64,000 nt of DNA from an uncultured beta proteobacterium (GTDB taxonomy: Bacteria > Pseudomonadota > Gammaproteobacteria > Burkholderiales > Burkholderiaceae_E). This document shows positions 28,568-38,517 of the stretch, piece by piece (the first letter of the stretch is position 1; each line of letters opens with the position of its first letter). The DNA lies in assembly GCA_903934295.1 (NCBI GenBank), contig CAIZNI010000066.1:62001-126000 (forward strand), in the 5' to 3' direction. Made by a program: the position numbers and the translations under genes. The notes under the pieces were generated by a model. That model saw nothing but the letters and a program-made list of their open reading frames with translations, did no database searches and was not told where the DNA came from.

Positions 28568-31087
28568 TCAGAGCGGGCGGCCTTCTGCGGCGAGTTGGAC
28601 CAGCAGCGCGGGCGGCTCGAAACGCTCGCCGTAACGAGCGGCCAGTTCGCGGGCTCGCTCGACGAAGCGCGCGACGCCGACATGGTTGACGAACTGGGCG
28701 GTGCCGCCGGTGTACGCCGGGAAGCCCCAGCCGAAGATCGAGCCGATGTTGGCGTCCCGGGTCGATGCCAGCACGCCTTCCTGAAGGCAGCGAACGGTTT
28801 CGATGGCCTGGGCGTACAGCAGCCGATCGCCGATGTCTTCCGGGTTCACTGCCTTGCCGCCCTTGGCAAACGCGCTCAGTCCCGGCCAGAGGTGTTTCGG
28901 ACCGTCGGCCGGGTAGTCGTAGAACCCCCCGCCGTGGGCGCGACCCATCCGCCGGTAGCCGTGCGACATTTTCTCCAGGACATAGACGGCCGATTCCGCC
29001 ATCAACCGGGACTTCACCTTGTGGTTGTGCTTGTGGGGCTTGGCCGCAGCGATCGGGATCGTCTTGCGGCTGCCGGCGTCGGGCTTGTGCGCGGCCTTGC
29101 CGTGCGCTTGATGATCGTGTGCGTGGGGGGCGTGGTCGTGTTTGTGATCGTGGTCGTGGTCGTGGTGCTCATGAGCCTGATGCCCATGTCCATGTCCGTG
29201 TTCATCGTGCCCGTGATCGTCATGCGCGTGATGCTCGTGGCCGTGATCGTCATGCGCATGATGCTCGTGCCCGTGATGCGCATGATCGGCATGGTCGCAG
29301 TGCTCGCCATGGGCATGGTCGTGATGTGCATGGTCGTGATGTGCATGGTCGTGTCCATGTGCATGCCCGTCGTGACCCTCTTGCGCGGCGCGGGCGGCGC
29401 GCTCCAGATCAGCCAGTTCCTGATGCAGGACATCGTCCGCCAGTTTCAGCGAGACTTCATCGAGAACCGCAAGCGGTCCCACCGGCATGCCGGCCTGGAC
29501 CGCGATGTTTTCGATCATCGCGGGGGGGACGCCTTCACCGAGCAGCGCCATCCCCTCATTGACGAAGCTGCCGAAGACGCGACTGGTGTAGAAGCCGCGC
29601 GAGTCGTTGACCACGATCGGCGTTTTGCCGAGTTGAAGGACGAAGTCGTAGGCGCGTGCCAGCGTCTCATCCGATGTGAGCCGGCCGCGGATGATTTCGA
29701 CCAGCTGCATCTTGTCCACCGGTGAAAAGAAGTGCAGACCGACGAACTTGTCGGGCCTGGCGCAGGCCTGGGCCAGTCCGGTGATCGGCAGCGTCGAGGT
29801 GTTCGATGCGAACACCGCGTCGGGCGACAGCAGCGCTTCGGTCTCGCGGGTGACGGTCGCCTTCAATTCGCGATTCTCGAAGACCGCTTCGATCACCAGG
29901 TCGCATCCCGCGAGGTCTTGCAGGCTGGCGGTTGCGTGAATGCGCGCCAGCGTTTCCTGGGCTGCAGTCGTTGTCATCGTCGCCTTCTTGACTCGCCGGG
30001 CCAGCAGTGCCTCGGTGTGAGCCTTTCCCTTGTCCGCGGCCTCCTGGCTGACGTCCTTCAGGACGCAGTCGATACCGCGCGAAGCACAGGCCCAGGCAAT
30101 GCCGGCCCCCATCATGCCGGCGCCGATCACGCCGACCCGGGTGCTGGAGAAGCGCGCCGGCACGGGCGGACGGCTTTTGCCCGCCCTGACCTCGTTCATC
30201 TGGAAGAAGAAGGTGCCGATCATGTTCTTGGCCACCTGTCCGGTGGCCAGCTTGGTCAGGTAGCGCGACTCGATGCGCATCGCGGTGTCGAAGTCGACCT
30301 GCGCGCCCTCGACCGCAGCCGCCAGGATCGCTTCGGGCGCCGGCAGGTTGCCGTGCGTCTTGTCGATCAGCATTGCCGGCGCGACAGCCAGCATCCCGGC
30401 GATCGCCGGGTTCGCAGGCGTGCCGCCGGGGATGCGGTGGCGGGGATCGTCCCAGGGCTGAATGGGGGACGGGTTGGCGGCGATCCAGGCGCGAGCCGCC
30501 GGCATCAGCGCGGCTGCATCGGGGACGAGTTTTCCCAGATAACCGGTCTCCAGGGCTTCCTTCGGCGTGAACCGCTTGCCTTCGGAAAGATAGGGCAGGG
30601 CGCGCTGCAGGCCGAGCAGCCGCACCGACTTCACCACCCCCCCGGCACCAGGCAGAAGGCCCAGCGTCACTTCCGGAAAACCGAGCTGGATCGCCGGGTT
30701 GTCGATCGCGATCCGATGATGGCAGGCGAGTGTCAATTCGAAACCGCCACCCAGCGCATGACCGTTGATCGCCGCCACCACCGGCTTGCCGAGTTTCTCC
30801 AGCCGGCGCAGAACGCCCTTCATGTGCTCGATGCCGCGGAAGAAGTCTTCTGCGTCTTGCGGGCGCACCGCGATCAAGGCGCGAAGGTCGCCTCCTGCAA
30901 AAAAGGAGGACTTGGCCGATGCAATGATGACGCCTGTTATCTGGTCGCGTTCGGCTTCCAGTCGGTCAACGGTGGTCGCCAGATCTGCCTTGAATCCGGT
31001 GCTCATGGTGTTGACAGGCTCGCCGGGCGCATCCAGCGTCAGCACGACGATGCCGTCTTCGCCCTTGTGATAACCAATACTGCTCAT
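28568..31087 (-). CDS. FadB/FadJ-type multifunctional beta-oxidation protein with histidine-rich insert (839 aa)
   Basis: The crotonase domain (1-200) has both catalytic glutamates, E117 in GGGFELTL and E139 in FPEVTLGLLPG. The NAD-binding domain has GAGMMG at 322-327 and LHFFSPVDKMQLVE with H452. The first 3HCDH domain begins near 495 and is interrupted at about 572-690 by a segment with 45 histidines in residues 571-670, mixed with Asp, Gly and Ala; it resumes with VYVLEKMSHGYRRMGRAHGG at 701. The family normally has only a short loop there. The catalytic sites look intact, so the enzyme is probably active. The insert may bind zinc, nickel or copper; this is inference. Confidence 0.93.
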   Translation of the reverse strand: MSSIGYHKGEDGIVVLTLDAPGEPVNTMSTGFKADLATTVDRLEAERDQITGVIIASAKSSFFAGGDLRALIAVRPQDAEDFFRGIEHMKGVLRRLEKLGKPVVAAINGHALGGGFELTLACHHRIAIDNPAIQLGFPEVTLGLLPGAGGVVKSVRLLGLQRALPYLSEGKRFTPKEALETGYLGKLVPDAAALMPAARAWIAANPSPIQPWDDPRHRIPGGTPANPAIAGMLAVAPAMLIDKTHGNLPAPEAILAAAVEGAQVDFDTAMRIESRYLTKLATGQVAKNMIGTFFFQMNEVRAGKSRPPVPARFSSTRVGVIGAGMMGAGIAWACASRGIDCVLKDVSQEAADKGKAHTEALLARRVKKATMTTTAAQETLARIHATASLQDLAGCDLVIEAVFENRELKATVTRETEALLSPDAVFASNTSTLPITGLAQACARPDKFVGLHFFSPVDKMQLVEIIRGRLTSDETLARAYDFVLQLGKTPIVVNDSRGFYTSRVFGSFVNEGMALLGEGVPPAMIENIAVQAGMPVGPLAVLDEVSLKLADDVLHQELADLERAARAAQEGHDGHAHGHDHAHHDHAHHDHAHGEHCDHADHAHHGHEHHAHDDHGHEHHAHDDHGHDEHGHGHGHQAHEHHDHDHDHKHDHAPHAHDHQAHGKAAHKPDAGSRKTIPIAAAKPHKHNHKVKSRLMAESAVYVLEKMSHGYRRMGRAHGGGFYDYPADGPKHLWPGLSAFAKGGKAVNPEDIGDRLLYAQAIETVRCLQEGVLASTRDANIGSIFGWGFPAYTGGTAQFVNHVGVARFVERARELAARYGERFEPPALLVQLAAEGRPL
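29211..29270 (-). repeat. Two tandem 30-bp repeats in the histidine-rich coding segment
   Basis: Units at 29211-29240 and 29241-29270 differ at two positions. Each encodes ten residues of the HHAHDDHGHE type. The array suggests that the insert expanded by repeat duplication. Confidence 0.85.
29314..29353 (-). repeat. 15-bp tandem repeats in the histidine-rich coding segment
   Basis: Two exact copies of a 15-base unit (29314-29328 and 29329-29343) and a 10-base partial copy encode HDHAH-type units. Confidence 0.85.
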
Positions 31088-31215: not shown

Positions 31216-34164
31216 TCAGCGAAGCCGCAGGATCGGACCCCTGGGCGGGCGTTGTTGGCTGCTGCCCGAGTAAAGCACCTGCAGGACCTTCTGGTCGCGG
31301 ATGAGCTCGGCGCAGGAGTTGGCCTCGGTCACCAGGACCTTGTCCATTGGCCTGGCCAGCGCAAAACCCTGCCCGTAATCGACCTGCAGGTCGACCAGCG
31401 AGGCCACCGTGTCGGCCGTCTCGGCCCACTCGGCGATGCTGCGCATGCCGAGTTCATGGGTCAGCTCGACGATCGTTCGAGTGATCGCGTAGTTGGCGGG
31501 ATTGCTGTTGATGTCGCGGATGAAGGAGCCGTCGATCTTGATGAAATCGGCCGGAATTTCCTTCAGGTAGTTGAACGAGGTGTAGCCGGCGCCGAAATCA
31601 TCCAGCGCCAGCTTGCTGCCATACATGCGCACACGGTCGATGAACCGGCGCGTCGAGCCGATGTCGTTGAGCGCAACGCTTTCGGTGATCTCGAAGCACA
31701 GCTTGGGCATCGCCATCGGGTGATCGGCGATCATCGAGAACGCATCGTCAACAAAGCGCGAGTCATTGAGCGAAGCGCCACTGATGTTGATCGTCGCGAA
31801 CGCCAGCCGGTCCCGATGCCCCGGGTGCGTGTCGAGCCACTCCAGCGTGCTGCGCAGCACCCAGCGGTCGATGTCCGACATCAGGCCGTTGCGCTCCGCC
31901 GCGCCGATGAAACGATCCGGCGGTACGACGCCGCCTCGCTCGTCTCGCATCCGCAGAAGCACTTCATAACTGAGCGTCTCGTTGGGGGCGTGAAGCGAAA
32001 CAATCGGCTGGAAATCGAGGAAGTAGCGATCGGACGTCACCTTCTGTTGAAGGTCGGCGACCACCTTCAACTCCTCCAGGTGACTGCGCAAACGCTTGTC
32101 GCGCTCGCCCATGAGAACGACACAGTTGCGTCCTCTCGATTTGGCTTCTGCGCAGGCCCTACCGGCCGAGGCAATGATGTCGACTGCCCGTATGTTCTTG
32201 TCGAACGCGACAACGCCGATACTGGCGGTCACGATGAGTCGCTTGCCGGCCGGCTCGAACGGCAGTGAGTCGATGGATTCCCGCAGGCGCTCGCTGAACC
32301 CCATGATGGCGAACTCCGGGCAGTCCTGGAGCACGACCACGAAGGAGTCGGCCATGCGAGCGATGTGGTCGCCGGTCCGGACGGTATTGCTCAGCCGCAC
32401 AGCAACCTGTTGAAGGATCGCGTCGCCAATGCCGTGTCCATAGAGATCGTTGATCAACTTGAATCGATCCATGGCGACATAGGCAACCGCGCAGGGCGTA
32501 CCGGCGAGCACCAGCTGTTCCGCCTCTGCCATCGCCTGCTCCAAGCCCCGCCGGTTGCGCAGTCCGGTCAGCGAGTCGTGATCAACCAGGTGGCGAAGCT
32601 GCGACTCGGCGATCTTGCGAGAGGTGATTTCCTGGATCGACCCCTCGATCGAGTCTCCCTTCGCAGTGACTCGGGCCTGAAACCACCGTTCCGGTTGGGT
32701 GTCGGTGGCGGGTGTATGGAATTCAAGGTCGGGGGAGTCGGAGTTGGCGGCCTCGATTATCGTCTGAATACAATTTGCGCCTAGAATTGAATCGATTCTA
32801 ATAAGACCAGGTGCTCGGGCTGTCTTTTCAAAAAAGAGGCAATCAAAAGCCGGGTTCTTGAGCGTTACATAACCAGCATTGTCTAGGCTAAACAAGCCGA
32901 TGGGCATCGAGTTGTAATTGGCTTTAAATCTCTCAAGTGTATCAAGGCTTTCGCGTTGCGCTGACAATCGTGCGACGCGTTCTACCCTGAGTTTCTCGGC
33001 CAAGGCGATGGCCGTTGCAAGGGCTGACGCTACGGATGCGGTTTGGGAGTTTAGGCCGGGGATTACAGTCGAAATAAATCCTGATGCATACCCAACTTCC
33101 AGAAGCGTGCCGACAAAGGTGACGCACCAAGAGGCTGCGTACCAAACGGAAGCGCTTGTCCGTGACTTATATGTTATTACTCCGAGATTAATTAAGACTA
33201 AAAGTATTCCGAGTGTCGATGAGGTCCAGATTATAGGCAGGAAAATTGAGTGATCCAAGAATGGCGATGCAATAAACACTACTGCACAGACTGTCTTGGC
33301 ACCATTCATCCATTTCATTAACCCGAGTTTCTCGAGATCGGCCTTCAAGAGCGCGATAAAGAGAGCTGCGGTAAGTAATGGATGTGCGGCAAGAGTCATC
33401 CGGAGGATCACGAGTAACATCTCGGGGTCCGGGTTGATGCCAAGCCAAAACAAATCCCATCCATCATTGATGGACGCCACTCTTAGACTTGTAATCAGCC
33501 ATCCAGAAAACAAGAAGAAAGAGCGATCGTTGTTAAGTAAGCCAACGCAGCATCCGAAGAAGGCCAATAATATCAATGACCCAACGAGCGCACCTCCGCC
33601 CCTTTCGAACAACCGTTGTGAAGATCCGTAAGCTTCGCTGTCCCATAGAAATATCTTTGGTCGGCTGACACCCAAAGGTGCAATCTTTCCCAGGAGATAA
33701 GCGCTTTCGTTCTCGGCCAAATCGAGCCTCACCGAAATGCCGCCTTTCTCATTTGCAGCGTACACTTTTTCGGGATCTCTAGTCTTTCCACCTCTGTAAA
33801 GCCAAAAGTCTACGTTAGTAGACCGCAACATCCGTAATTCGACAACTTTGGCGCTATTTTTATCAGGGTTGAATATCGGGACGCCGATCCAGAAAGGTTC
33901 GTCTGGTTGGCTCCTTGCCGTGTAGCCTTTCGGAAGGCTTGGCGAAAGGGCGTCGCTGATTATCTTGTCAGGAGAGTTGGTGTCGGCGCCAGCGGTCAGC
34001 AATGATACTGAGCGTTGGGAGATGGCGGTGCTGTGAACTTCTTGTTCGCTTGTTTTCCAAACAACGGCGACCGCGCACGCGAGCAATACGAGCACGATAA
34101 CGGAGAGAAGGCCGTTAGTTGCTCGAGAAAAGAAACGGTATTTTTTCGCAGTTGTCGCGGGCAT
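31216..34164 (-). CDS. 7TM-DISM / PAS / degenerate GGDEF / EAL signalling protein (982 aa)
   Basis: Residue 17-36 is a membrane helix, 40-188 a periplasmic DISM-like sensor, and 190-395 about seven membrane helices. A PAS-like domain (410-520) and GGDEF and EAL domains follow. The GGDEF domain keeps DSLTGLRNRRGL and MDRFKLIND, but the signature loop reads RMADSF at 603-608, so cyclase activity is unlikely. The EAL domain retains SYEVLLR, the NIS asparagine, EITES, DDFGAGYTSF, FIKIDGS, AEWAE and GQGFALARP, so c-di-GMP phosphodiesterase activity is plausible. The first 475 codons are AT-rich and the rest GC-rich. Confidence 0.9.
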   Translation of the reverse strand: MPATTAKKYRFFSRATNGLLSVIVLVLLACAVAVVWKTSEQEVHSTAISQRSVSLLTAGADTNSPDKIISDALSPSLPKGYTARSQPDEPFWIGVPIFNPDKNSAKVVELRMLRSTNVDFWLYRGGKTRDPEKVYAANEKGGISVRLDLAENESAYLLGKIAPLGVSRPKIFLWDSEAYGSSQRLFERGGGALVGSLILLAFFGCCVGLLNNDRSFFLFSGWLITSLRVASINDGWDLFWLGINPDPEMLLVILRMTLAAHPLLTAALFIALLKADLEKLGLMKWMNGAKTVCAVVFIASPFLDHSIFLPIIWTSSTLGILLVLINLGVITYKSRTSASVWYAASWCVTFVGTLLEVGYASGFISTVIPGLNSQTASVASALATAIALAEKLRVERVARLSAQRESLDTLERFKANYNSMPIGLFSLDNAGYVTLKNPAFDCLFFEKTARAPGLIRIDSILGANCIQTIIEAANSDSPDLEFHTPATDTQPERWFQARVTAKGDSIEGSIQEITSRKIAESQLRHLVDHDSLTGLRNRRGLEQAMAEAEQLVLAGTPCAVAYVAMDRFKLINDLYGHGIGDAILQQVAVRLSNTVRTGDHIARMADSFVVVLQDCPEFAIMGFSERLRESIDSLPFEPAGKRLIVTASIGVVAFDKNIRAVDIIASAGRACAEAKSRGRNCVVLMGERDKRLRSHLEELKVVADLQQKVTSDRYFLDFQPIVSLHAPNETLSYEVLLRMRDERGGVVPPDRFIGAAERNGLMSDIDRWVLRSTLEWLDTHPGHRDRLAFATINISGASLNDSRFVDDAFSMIADHPMAMPKLCFEITESVALNDIGSTRRFIDRVRMYGSKLALDDFGAGYTSFNYLKEIPADFIKIDGSFIRDINSNPANYAITRTIVELTHELGMRSIAEWAETADTVASLVDLQVDYGQGFALARPMDKVLVTEANSCAELIRDQKVLQVLYSGSSQQRPPRGPILRLR

Positions 34165-34210
34165 TGCCTTGAGCGCCTGATCTCACCGGTGGCTTATTCC
34201 TCGATGAGTG

Positions 34211-34255
34211 TGCCCGATCGGCAGCTGCTCAGGTGGGTCGGCCGATCAGCGGGCA
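34211..34255. repeat. Imperfect inverted repeat between the FeeM-like and EAL genes
   Basis: Arms 34211-34222 and 34241-34255 pair around an 18-base loop with a bulge of a few bases. It lies in the 197-bp gap upstream of the EAL gene. No T tract follows, so it may be a regulatory hairpin or a protein site rather than a terminator. Confidence 0.35.
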
Positions 34256-34361
34256 AACAGGCAGTGCGAACGGTAGCTCATGCCGTGATGGGCGCAAAGT
34301 AGTCCGGGAGTATGCGTAACTGTTCTGTCCCGGAGCGGTTCCAGCGAACTAAGACGTAAAT

Positions 34362-35207
34362 TTAGAGAATCGGAATTCCAAACGCTTCGCCCAGGCTGTT
34401 TGATGTGGTCGATTTGGCGTTCTCGCGTCGAGGCTGACTCCACATTCCGTTCACTGACGAAAAAATCTCGATCTCTGGGTGAAATCGTTTTACCATGAAG
34501 TCGTAAAGTGGGTTTTTCGATTCAAACCAATGCCGCTCTGCGCTCACAGTTTCGAGGGCCATTACTCTGACGGGTATGCCGCCGGAGGAGGTGATTGGAA
34601 GGAGTCCAGCATTCGGTAAGATATCGTGAAACCCCAGTCGAACATAATCTCTATCATTGGGGGGCCTCACACCAACCAAAATCCAGGATAACTGTTTTGC
34701 AAGGCAATAGCGATGTAGTGATTTGAAAAGAGCTATCTTTACGAGCGGGCCAATGGCTCCCTGTTTTACTCCAAGTCGCGTGACATAGGCAAAGGGTTGG
34801 TTGGAAATCGAACGCGGAAGTTGCACATCTCTCATTATCGGCAGCGCCGAAACAAGATTGGTGTCTATTCTTAGTGTGCCGAGAGGGTTGCTATTATTTT
34901 TATGTTCTGCAAGAAATACTATCGAGTTTGGGTTTCGATCTTGCGTTTCGGCTGTTTGCAGTTCATCGGAAAGGTTTGGCCAATGCCTTTTGTATGCTTC
35001 TGATCGAATTACTACAGCCTTGTTGAGCTGATCCTCGTTTCGGACAATTCTAATTCGAAATGGAAGCGTTTCGCGTTTCTCGCTGGCGTTACTGTTAAGC
35101 ATCTCAGGCGAGCCTAAAAGAGATTGTTGGAGCTGGTGCGAAAGTTGGTCGAGTCGTCTTGCAAGTCTGTGGAGTTCTTCCAGATCGACTGAGGCGCACT
35201 TGGGCAT
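34362..35207 (-). CDS. FeeM-like N-acyl amino acid synthase / GNAT-fold protein (281 aa)
   Basis: Residues 1-35 are a polar helical leader. From about 50 the sequence follows the pattern of the FeeM catalytic core, a long-chain N-acyl amino acid synthase related to LuxI and GNAT folds: IRIVRNEDQLNKAVVIRSEAYK-type opening, NPLGTLRIDTN, then AYVTRLGVKQGA, PLVKIALFKSLHRYCL and DYVRLGFHDI. Such enzymes use acyl carrier protein-bound fatty acids to acylate an amino acid. The gene is AT-rich and divergent from a membrane histidine kinase. The product is not known. LuxI itself is less likely because its conserved RF/W and D-R residues are not seen. Confidence 0.72.
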   Translation of the reverse strand: MPKCASVDLEELHRLARRLDQLSHQLQQSLLGSPEMLNSNASEKRETLPFRIRIVRNEDQLNKAVVIRSEAYKRHWPNLSDELQTAETQDRNPNSIVFLAEHKNNSNPLGTLRIDTNLVSALPIMRDVQLPRSISNQPFAYVTRLGVKQGAIGPLVKIALFKSLHRYCLAKQLSWILVGVRPPNDRDYVRLGFHDILPNAGLLPITSSGGIPVRVMALETVSAERHWFESKNPLYDFMVKRFHPEIEIFSSVNGMWSQPRRENAKSTTSNSLGEAFGIPIL

Positions 35208-35265
35208 CTGGTACTTCTCGGCAAAGTCTATCCGAATGCTTCTGCGAGCTCAGTCTCCGGTCCTG

Positions 35266-35271
35266 ATTTTA
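35266..35271 (-). promoter_or_regulatory. Possible -10 box of the FeeM-like gene
   Basis: TAAAAT on the minus strand lies 58 bases before the start. A TCGGCT 17 bp upstream is a poor -35, so an activator may be needed if this is a real promoter. Confidence 0.3.
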
Positions 35272-35348
35272 TGCGAAGTGTCGCCGCGAGCCGACAGTTT
35301 CCCCGCTTGATGATGTGTTTTTCAGCCCAACCATGTTGCCAGCTTCGA

Positions 35349-35375
35349 AATTGGTTGTCAGGCTAATTGGTCAAT
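35349..35375 (+). promoter_or_regulatory. Direct repeats upstream of the histidine kinase
   Basis: AATTGGT occurs at 35349-35355 and again at 35365-35371, 16 bp apart, and the second copy extends into ATTGGTCAAT, a small palindrome. The position, about 50-70 bases before the kinase start, suits an activator or repressor site. This is a candidate only. Confidence 0.3.
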
Positions 35376-35421
35376 CGGGGCAAATCGAGCTCCCGTGGGC
35401 CCATCTTGCGTTGGAGGGCAT

Positions 35422-37281
35422 ATGAAGGCTGGAGATGACGGGTCTCTACGTGGTTGGCGGCGTACGCCCCCTGCCGACTCGCCTGTCGTGAGGTTTTCGC
35501 CCGCGGATGAGGCTTTGTTCCTTCAAGACTATCGATTAGAGGGACTTCGTTGGTCGTCCTATGCGTGCCTTGCGGGGATCATAGTCTTGGTTTTGTTTGT
35601 CGCGTTTCCTGGTCTTTCAAATCGCTATACGGCGGAAGCGACGTTGCTTCGAATACTTTTGATATTCGTTCTCGTTGCTATTCAATTTGTATTGTTGCGT
35701 TTTCGATCCTGGGCGGTGCGGCATTATTTTTGGTTGGTTGGTGGCGGATGCTTTGCTGTGTTATCGGGACTGTTATGGCTTATTCTGGATCCTCAGTTTG
35801 AGTCTGTCTCTTCGGGTTTTTCCGTTTTGCCTGTTGCGATGTTTTTTATTTTTTTGTTATATGGATTTCTTAGATTGCCAATTGTTTTTGCACTTTTCCT
35901 GGGGTGTATTTTTTCCGCTGTGATTTCTTTTGTTGTCTATGCTGAAACTCCCGGCGATGGCTGGTATAGAGTCGTATTGTATTTGGGGTTGGAGAATGTG
36001 CTAGGTGGTCTGTTGCTGGTGTCGATCGAGAATAGGGAGCGGCAGGTGTTTCGGCAGTCGATTGCGTTGACGGCAGCCAAGGCGGCCGCCCTAGTTAGGG
36101 CGGAGTCAGCAGAGCGAGCGTATGAGGACAAGATCCGTCTGATATCTGCTATTAATCATGATTTGCGGCAGCCTTTATTGGCAATTAATGCCCATGCGGG
36201 TTTGATTGAGAGGAGGATGGTTGGGCTGCAGCCTGATAGTGTTGGGTCGTCTGTTCGTAATCTTGGCGAGGCTGTACAGTTTCTAAACATCGCGTTGGAT
36301 AACTTGCTTGCGGCTGCACGGTATGAGTCGGGTGACGAGCCTGTGCATGTTGAGCGGGTGCTGGTCTCTGACCTTGTAAATGCTGCGGTTGATATTATTT
36401 CCGTAGATGCTCTTTCCCGTGGGCTGGAGGTCAGGGTTAGGCTGCCAAGCTTTCGGGTGGAGCTTAGCACTGATCGCGCTTCGATGATTCGAGTTCTTAT
36501 TAATTTAATTTCTAATGCGTTGAAATTTACCGAAGTAAAAGTAGGGCGTGCTAGCGGTGTCGTGATTTTTGTTGGTTTTCGCAATGGAGTTTGTAAGATT
36601 GCTGTTGCCGATACTGGGATTGGGATTCCAAAAGAGCATTTGTCAGTTATATTTGAGCCTTACAGCAAGGCCGGACGGGCGGTTCTTGGGCGCGATAGTG
36701 GCCTCGGATTGGGATTGTTTCTAGTCAGGGCTGCCTTAAATAGATTGCACAGTCATTCGGTCGACGTGCGTTCGCGTGTGAGTCATGGCTCACGGTTCAC
36801 CGTAAGCGTTCCTGGAAAGATTTTTCTTGGTGCGTCGAATCGAGAGATATGTAACGCTGACTTGGACGAGGGCTTGGAGCAGGCGTTGGACGGATCGTAT
36901 GTCCTGCTGCTGGAGCAATCGGATACCAAGCGTCAGGCCATGATTGACGTGTTAGAGGATTGGGGCGTTATTGTCTCGCCTGCGGCTAGCGTTAAAGAGT
37001 TGATTGCTAACGAGACTGAGTCTGAGCGAACCGTTGATTCTTTATTGGTTGGGCTCGACGGGCTGGACGCTCAAGCGCAAGACGATCTCTTGCACTTGAG
37101 AGGATTACTTCCGGTGGGCGTTAATCCAATCTTTACTTCAGACTCCGGTGCGGTGTTCCGTGGTCAATTTCTTCCGGACTGGAATTCAAAGATCCTAAGA
37201 GTACCGTTTTCCCCTCAAGATTTAGCCTTGGCGATTCTTGCCGGGGTGGAGGAGAACCGGAGGAGGGAGACAGAGGAGTAG
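35422..37281 (+). CDS. Six-TM sensor histidine kinase with degenerate receiver domain (619 aa)
   Basis: The ATG at 35422 follows GGAGGG; a GTG nine codons upstream has no such site. Six hydrophobic helices span about 43-202. The HisKA domain has H246 in INHDLRQPL, and the ATPase domain has NLISNALKF (361-369), DTGIGIP and GLGLGLF. Residues 492-610 look like a receiver, but the acidic pocket reads LLLEQSD and the phosphoacceptor strand reads SLLVGLDG, with Gly where Asp is expected. The kinase has no linked response regulator. It is strongly AT-rich: the 60 bases from 35821 are about 32% GC. Its divergence from the FeeM-like gene suggests a synthase-sensor pair. Confidence 0.85.
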   Translation: MKAGDDGSLRGWRRTPPADSPVVRFSPADEALFLQDYRLEGLRWSSYACLAGIIVLVLFVAFPGLSNRYTAEATLLRILLIFVLVAIQFVLLRFRSWAVRHYFWLVGGGCFAVLSGLLWLILDPQFESVSSGFSVLPVAMFFIFLLYGFLRLPIVFALFLGCIFSAVISFVVYAETPGDGWYRVVLYLGLENVLGGLLLVSIENRERQVFRQSIALTAAKAAALVRAESAERAYEDKIRLISAINHDLRQPLLAINAHAGLIERRMVGLQPDSVGSSVRNLGEAVQFLNIALDNLLAAARYESGDEPVHVERVLVSDLVNAAVDIISVDALSRGLEVRVRLPSFRVELSTDRASMIRVLINLISNALKFTEVKVGRASGVVIFVGFRNGVCKIAVADTGIGIPKEHLSVIFEPYSKAGRAVLGRDSGLGLGLFLVRAALNRLHSHSVDVRSRVSHGSRFTVSVPGKIFLGASNREICNADLDEGLEQALDGSYVLLLEQSDTKRQAMIDVLEDWGVIVSPAASVKELIANETESERTVDSLLVGLDGLDAQAQDDLLHLRGLLPVGVNPIFTSDSGAVFRGQFLPDWNSKILRVPFSPQDLALAILAGVEENRRRETEE

Positions 37282-37311: not shown

Positions 37312-38517
37312 TCAAACCCGCTCCACAATCGTAGCAATCCCCATTCCGCCGCCCACGCACAGCGTGATCAGTCCCCGTTTCAGTTGCCGCCTTTCCAGTT
37401 CGTCCAGCACGGTCCCCAGCAGCATCGCCCCGGTAGCGCCCAGTGGATGGCCCATGGCGATGGAGCCACCGTTGACGTTGACCTTTTCCGGCGGAACGCC
37501 GAGTTCATTCATGAAGCGCATCACCACGGCAGCGAAAGCTTCATTGACTTCGAACAGGTCGATGTCGTCGATACCGAGACCTGCTTTCGCCAGGGCTTTT
37601 CGGGTTGCGGGTACGGGTCCGGTCAGCATGATCGTGGGATCGGTACCGGTGAGTGCGGTGGCCAGTATCCGGCCGCGAGGGGTCAGTCCCAGCCGCTTGC
37701 CGGCGGCTTCATTGCCGATCAGGACGAGTGCGGCACCATCGACGATTCCGGATGAGTTGCCGGCGTGATGGACATGGTTGATCCGTTCGACCTGCGGGTA
37801 CTTCCGCAGCGCAACCGCGTCGAAGCCCATGGCGCCCAACTTGTCGAACGAGGGTTTCAACTGAGCGAGCGAGTCGGCCGATGTGTCGGGTCGAATTGTC
37901 TCGTCGCGCTGCAGGATGGCGATGCCCAGATCGTCGAGCACCGGCACCAGCGATCGGTCGAAGTGTCCGGCGCTTCGGGCCGCAGCGGCCTTGCGATGCG
38001 AGTTCGCGCCGAACTCATCCACCATCTCGCGGCTGTAGTCGTCGAGCGTGGCGATCAGGTCTGCGCCGATGCCTTGAGGCACGAAGCCGGTGGTCAGATT
38101 CGTTTCCGGGTCCTGCGCCCAGGCGCCGCCGTCCGACCCCATGGGGACTCGCGACATCGACTCGACGCCGCCGGCTACAATCAGATCTTCCCATCCGGAT
38201 CGCACCTTCTGGGCGGCCAGGTTGACGGCCTCCAGTCCCGATGCGCAGAAGCGGTTGATCTGCATCCCGGCCACTTTCAGGTCCCAGCCCGCGGCGAGAG
38301 CAGCGGTCTTGGCGATGACGGCCCCCTGGTCTCCGACCGGGGTCACCACGCCAAGCACCACGTCTTCCACCTGCGAGGTGTCCAGATCGTGCCGACGTTG
38401 CATCTCATGCATCAGCGTGGTCACCAGTTTCACCGGTTTGACCTCGTGCAGAGAGCCGCTGGACTTGCCCCGGCCGCGGGGGGTGCGGATGGCATCGAAA
38501 ACGTATGCTTCTGACAT
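37312..38517 (-). CDS. Acetyl-CoA C-acyltransferase / thiolase (401 aa)
   Basis: The thiolase triad is complete: nucleophile C91 in [13 protein letters not shown], histidine in [10 protein letters not shown] and the second cysteine in [10 protein letters not shown]. The enzyme cleaves 3-ketoacyl-CoA to acetyl-CoA in the last step of beta-oxidation, or runs in reverse. In related bacteria this gene normally precedes the fadB-type gene directly; here the signalling block lies between them. AGGAG precedes the ATG. It is divergent from the acyl-CoA dehydrogenase at 38619. Confidence 0.93.

Follow-up and report, generated by a model that had tools for sequence, protein, structure and literature searches.

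A FeeM-type acyltransferase and a 7TMR-DISM phosphodiesterase inherited side by side in Burkholderiales: a candidate synthase-receptor module

In CqsA/CqsS and LqsA/LqsS, a synthase (CqsA is a pyridoxal phosphate enzyme) is encoded beside a six-transmembrane (6-TM) hybrid kinase, that of CqsS having the layout 6-TM region, kinase, receiver; RpfC, the partner of RpfF, is a hybrid kinase with receiver and HPt, and RpfF itself is a crotonase-type enzyme. For the products of FeeM-type synthases we know of no receptors. Here we analyse a locus in a window of 64,000 nucleotides from an uncultured beta proteobacterium of the order Burkholderiales (assembly GCA_903934295.1, contig CAIZNI010000066.1, positions 62,001 to 126,000, forward strand), in which the gene of a FeeM-type N-acyltransferase, a putative N-acyl amino acid synthase, adjoins that of a membrane enzyme of cyclic dimeric guanosine monophosphate (c-di-GMP), hereafter the EAL protein. 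RpfF/RpfR (the BDSF system of Burkholderia and others) likewise combines an acyl-signal synthase with a neighbouring c-di-GMP phosphodiesterase (PDE) of PAS-GGDEF-EAL order, which passages of two papers describe as responding to a fatty-acid signal (PMC8846402; PMC6361424), and RgsP of Sinorhizobium meliloti is presented, in the parts of PMC6107284 devoted to it, as an active PDE of DISMED2-7TM-PAS-GGDEF-EAL architecture, the order also predicted for the EAL protein; RgsP differs in its role, polar growth together with RgsM, and those parts name no synthase partner.

One trait of RpfF/RpfR, a synthase adjoining a GGDEF-EAL receptor, recurs in the family, order and plasmid loci considered below. 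However, RpfF makes cis-2 fatty acids, whereas the synthase here has a predicted FeeM-type fold, and RpfR carries an FI domain, according to the domain description in PMC6361424, where the receptor here carries a 7TMR-DISM membrane sensor. Given the FeeM-type rather than crotonase fold and the DISM membrane sensor, the pair is not a member of RpfF/RpfR. Searches of the openly licensed literature listed no paper on a FeeM-type synthase paired with a 7TMR-DISM PDE. With such a near-obligate pair, synthase and sensor each gain a partner that can be put to the test, and carriers that can be cultured include Paraburkholderia phymatum STM815 and Quisquiliibacterium transsilvanicum DSM 29781.

Co-inheritance of the synthase and the EAL protein

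The synthase gene (34362..35207, minus strand, 281 aa, ATG start) is followed on its own strand, after a gap of 197 nt (34165..34361) in which no terminator-like site was found, by the EAL gene (31216..34164, minus strand, 982 aa). The two are adjacent and co-inherited, forming a near-obligate pair, and are very probably coupled in function. Hereafter, the host is the source of the window, ‘family’ denotes the host's family and ‘order’ the rest of Burkholderiales. The arrangement is non-random: among the 30 family synthase loci, the EAL-protein sensor adjoins in 28, within 1.5 kb (27 downstream on the same strand, one upstream on the other strand), and a kinase in 27, divergently in 26; the two loci devoid of the sensor (G028 and G023) are at contig ends. 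The sensor is located downstream on the same strand in all 12 order loci. Of 72,556 plasmid records, 13 carry the synthase (E up to 1e-3) and the same 13 the sensor (E up to 1e-20); all come from Paraburkholderia or Caballeronia and, by coordinates, hold the two genes side by side on one strand. Both genes occur in 19 of the 399 order genomes, the synthase by itself in none, the sensor by itself in two and neither in 378, the corresponding numbers for the 74 family genomes being 27, 1, 3 and 43; because the genomes are related, Fisher values for these counts are not true probabilities. The distances of synthase and EAL protein correlate at 0.75 inside the family and 0.89 outside it. Co-occurrence of all three genes in relatives, set beforehand as the test on which the first-pass annotation of this DNA could fail, holds in the host's family. 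In the wider class, the profile finds one of 274 genomes, the host itself, which argues against a wider taxonomic range of the module.

The order, class and family genome searches scored a capped number of pre-filtered candidates per genome, and partners absent from the gene calls (L034, L037, L043, L050, L056 and others) were recovered by profile searches of the genomes. A synthase match was obtained in 33 family genomes, of which 28 were counted as carrying the trio type (27 at E < 1e-45, G044 by its neighbours), whereas G004, G059, G061, G063 and G073, with distant synthase relatives only, were counted as lacking it.

FeeM-family genes are present in 65 of the 274 class genomes. As a control we used 40 of the 79 listed FeeM places outside the host, mostly the best-scoring ones and some cut by contig ends; unlike the window family, 37 of these have no directly adjoining GGDEF/EAL gene. 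A GGDEF-EAL gene directly adjoins FeeM in L204, L205 and L224 and lies farther off in L199, L201 and L235, with a kinase match also close by in L201 and L235. In L204 and L205, one FeeM clade from two different families of the class, the FeeM gene is preceded on its own strand by a dCache_3-PAS-GGDEF-EAL gene; this is a second lineage with the same kind of pairing and a different sensor. The distant window-family members L144, L145 and L058 have EAL- or GGDEF-type neighbours with no DISM match.

Synthase, receptor and product

The 281-aa enzyme is very probably a FeeM-type acyltransferase. Its model comprises a FeeM/GNAT-like core (residues ~47-241), a predicted N-terminal helix (9-30) and a C-terminus of low confidence, and structural comparison, which places FeeM ahead of plain GNAT by more than 3 Z units, argues for a FeeM-type fold. 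The Pfam FeeM model (PF21926, cut-off 27) matches 29 of the 31 aligned synthase members at E up to 1, L032 reaching 35.0 bits. Both the profile matches and the model bear out the proposal of the first-pass annotation that the enzyme is FeeM-type and not a plain GNAT. The plain GNAT assignment is ruled out by the lead of FeeM and by the plain GNAT Pfam models, which match at most three of the 31 members, with a best E of 0.04; LuxI, the acyl-homoserine lactone (AHL) synthase type, matches the window family less well than FeeM and is ruled out as its closest relative, and Autoind_synth is not one of the 13 Pfam families to which the 31 members have matches (E up to 1). The window family has its predicted fold and its relation to Pfam FeeM in common with FeeM and the PEP-CTERM-associated N-acyl amino acid synthases, and in the tree it is a separate clade from other FeeM (support 100/99). 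Searched as a single sequence against Pfam, NCBIfam and PDB, the window synthase gave no useful result, and a PDB profile search with profile A1 did not retrieve 2g0b. The host genome also encodes a canonical FeeM (L141, contig C47, 8028-8897; 182.5 bits) adjoining EryCIII-like, LolA-like and ABC genes. Synthase relatives were also seen in bins named Pirellula, Thiocapsa, Deltaproteobacteria, Actinomycetes and an archaeon (L075, L082, L092, L094 and L101); these are perhaps misbinned Burkholderiales contigs.

The EAL protein consists of an N-terminal transmembrane and DISMED2-like region (residues ~1-190), a 7TMR-DISM_7TM domain (191-390; PF07695, 50.2 bits against a cut-off of 29), a PAS-like region (~405-520) and identified GGDEF (528-680) and EAL (704-939) domains. 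DISMED2 and PAS have no match in the window protein; among the three relatives scanned, DISMED2 was detected only in L032 (19.5 bits, cut-off 22), and PAS_8 scored 17.8 (L032), 20.9 (L137) and 21.1 bits (L167), below its cut-off of 21.8. Ligand binding to DISMED2 in Pseudomonas aeruginosa is described in a passage of PMC6107284. The GGDEF signature is degenerate in the window (ADSF); counted over the 12 commonest signature forms, it is intact in at least 29 of 38 aligned rows and altered in at least six. By contrast, the Glu of the EAL motif and the two Asp of DDFG, which we take to be catalytic residues of EAL phosphodiesterases, are present in all 38. With the GGDEF signature degenerate and these residues kept, the EAL protein should be a phosphodiesterase. 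Receptor genes lacking a synthase are L167 (in G442) and L259 and L260 (both in G010).

The product is probably an N-acyl amino acid or an ester of one. N-acyl amino acids carry a free carboxyl group, and carboxyl groups are what ICMT enzymes methylate. In G045, G031, G028 and G011, whose loci make up a supported clade of the tree, a gene for a membrane methyltransferase of ICMT/PEMT type adjoins the synthase on the opposite strand (genes at L032 9672-10307, L033 7666-8400, L036 9024-9749 and L034 1-585). It is located between the synthase and EAL genes in the three loci with both ends seen, the G028 copy being cut by a contig end, and two of the three methyltransferases scanned match Pfam PEMT above its cut-off. 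A passage of PMC11580390 describes compounds that are AHL-like and yet take no part in AHL signalling; these may offer a further clue to the product of the window locus.

Proposed circuit and rival explanations

The joint travelling of synthase and EAL protein across many Burkholderiales suggests an undescribed form of signalling by a self-made lipid. We lean towards the locus being a synthase-receptor module in which the lipid product of the FeeM-type enzyme controls the EAL phosphodiesterase, and we are similarly inclined to regard the product as the ligand of the receptor. The enzyme would join a fatty acyl group, probably donated by acyl-acyl carrier protein as for FeeM, to an amino acid or a comparable amine; the product, whether extracellular, intracellular or located in the membrane, would bind the 7TMR-DISM or PAS region of the EAL protein and alter its phosphodiesterase activity, shifting c-di-GMP; and in the host's family the divergent kinase would have joined the two, either to sense this product as well or to regulate the pair. 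A more tentative possibility is a new class of cell-cell signalling, in which N-acyl amino acids (methyl esters in one clade) might serve as first messengers that are sensed directly by 7TMR-DISM receptors with c-di-GMP phosphodiesterase; the pair would have spread in Burkholderiales, partly on megaplasmids, with a kinase recruited in one family; strains that have the receptor but no synthase would be eavesdroppers, and a second FeeM lineage would have done likewise with dCache receptors.

The kinase gene (35422..37281, plus strand, 619 aa from the ATG at 35422; alternatively 35395-37281, 628 aa with a GTG start) encodes a transmembrane sensor with a YGF.RLP-like motif (here YGFLRLP), HisKA with an HDLRQP box, HATPase_c and a degenerate receiver. 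The six transmembrane segments assigned by the first-pass annotation fit the hydropathy profile, with five hydrophobic blocks over residues 41-202, one of which (127-177) could hold two helices. That annotation had also spoken of a kinase lacking a regulator, which is correct for the window copy, where the phosphoacceptor region is lost and no receiver or HPt match was found at E up to 1, and does not apply generally: 20 of 25 relatives keep this region, one of the other five ends at a contig end, and Pfam receiver matches occur in two kinase relatives. The weight that it placed on the kinase has to be reversed. The 12 order loci and the four plasmid loci read have no kinase match within three genes of the synthase; this distribution rules out the kinase as core partner, and it is an addition of one family. 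Since the EAL protein, unlike the kinase, is constant across the order and megaplasmids, the emphasis should shift to it, and RpfF/RpfR is a closer analogue than the RpfF/RpfC pair originally invoked. The window kinase shows neither the intact receiver nor the HPt of RpfC.

It is unlikely, and more so than the aminolipid alternative discussed below, that the product feeds the kinase, with the EAL protein merely an output or co-regulated effector of an RpfF/RpfC- or CqsA/CqsS-like circuit. Such a circuit would agree with the position of the kinase in family loci, with its co-occurrence with the synthase in the 74 family genomes (both in 26, one only in two and two, neither in 44, counting kinase matches at E < 1e-45 and leaving out weaker ones in G009 and G011), with an EAL protein-kinase distance correlation of 0.88 (18 loci) and with a layout like that of CqsS; however, the receiver of the window kinase is degenerate, and of the three distance correlations that between synthase and kinase is the lowest (0.59), kinase distances tracking the EAL protein more than the synthase. 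Somewhat less improbable, but still unlikely, is that the enzyme makes a membrane aminolipid resembling lyso-ornithine lipid and that what the EAL protein monitors is the condition of the envelope and not a released signal. Nine of the 31 aligned members match the NCBIfam model of OlsB-type enzymes, which are related acyltransferases (best 1e-4), and RgsP is placed in cell-wall growth by the relevant section of PMC6107284; yet FeeM matches more of the members, and more strongly, and the few neighbours with identified domains included no OlsA-type O-acyltransferase, most neighbours not having been scanned. The least probable of the alternatives reverses the direction, c-di-GMP turnover or direct contact with the EAL protein regulating an acyltransferase whose product serves elsewhere, as surfactant or antibiotic: RpfR is described in part of PMC6361424 as binding and inhibiting RpfF, but regulation of this kind needs no dedicated sensor, and a profile-recognisable sensor region stays with the synthase.

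Several observations nevertheless weigh against control of the EAL protein by the synthase product. Shared descent would by itself also lead to correlated distances, and such a correlation links the EAL protein to the kinase as well. Taken alone, the window synthase matches no Pfam or NCBIfam model, and two order relatives, L137 (24.9 bits) and L129 (23.1), fall under the Pfam FeeM cut-off. The GGDEF signature being lost in this lineage, the output is probably phosphodiesterase only; DISMED2 is predicted, in a passage of PMC8846402, to bind carbohydrates, and the cell-wall role of RgsP concerns a protein of the same architecture. The receptor occurs without synthase in G442 and G415 and in the incomplete genomes G010 (83%), G013 (78%) and G048 (75%), and G442 has no synthase between its EAL and PhzF-like genes, where the same-genus G335 has one. 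The EAL gene of G001 is on the opposite strand, with the kinase on another contig, and that of G072 is broken (open frame of 463 aa). None of 12 synthase paralogues was seen with a window-type receptor; together with the receptor-only genomes, these show that synthase and receptor need not occur together.

Genomic setting and paralogues

The AT-rich, back-to-back synthase and kinase genes, with the EAL gene on the synthase strand, are as first annotated in both coordinates and composition: GC is 0.478 for the synthase, 0.499 for the kinase and 0.559 for the EAL gene, against 0.657 in the remainder of the surrounding 20 kb. Of the module genes called, the synthase is the one with the lowest GC in 21 of 24 family loci, the exceptions being L053, L055 and L060. 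In the divergent intergenic region (35208..35421) no sigma-70-like promoter was found; it has two short palindromes, one at 35339-35354, that are uninformative for regulation.

In the paralogous FeeM-like clade devoid of a DISM-EAL partner (L062-L067, L143 and related), the neighbouring gene in L062 is ftsY-like (SRP54 GTPase), and other clade members have nearby genes that equal it in size (297-298 aa).

Outside the module, the window trio is flanked by thiolase (37312..38517, minus strand)/acyl-CoA dehydrogenase genes and by a gene for a FadB-type enoyl-CoA hydratase/3-hydroxyacyl-CoA dehydrogenase with a His-rich insert (28568..31087, minus strand). Pfam confirmed the same setting in L040 and acyl-CoA dehydrogenase at L032, L034 and L039, the flanks of the remaining family loci being judged from gene size and FadB match only; shared fatty-acid-gene flanks fit vertical inheritance in the family. 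The FadB-type protein has 30 His in 60 residues within its insert (residues ~571-675), and the same position holds at least 11 His in 60 residues in 10 of the 11 relatives whose length is 733-874 aa, compared with three in L038; four further matches, which differ in length, were left out of the count.
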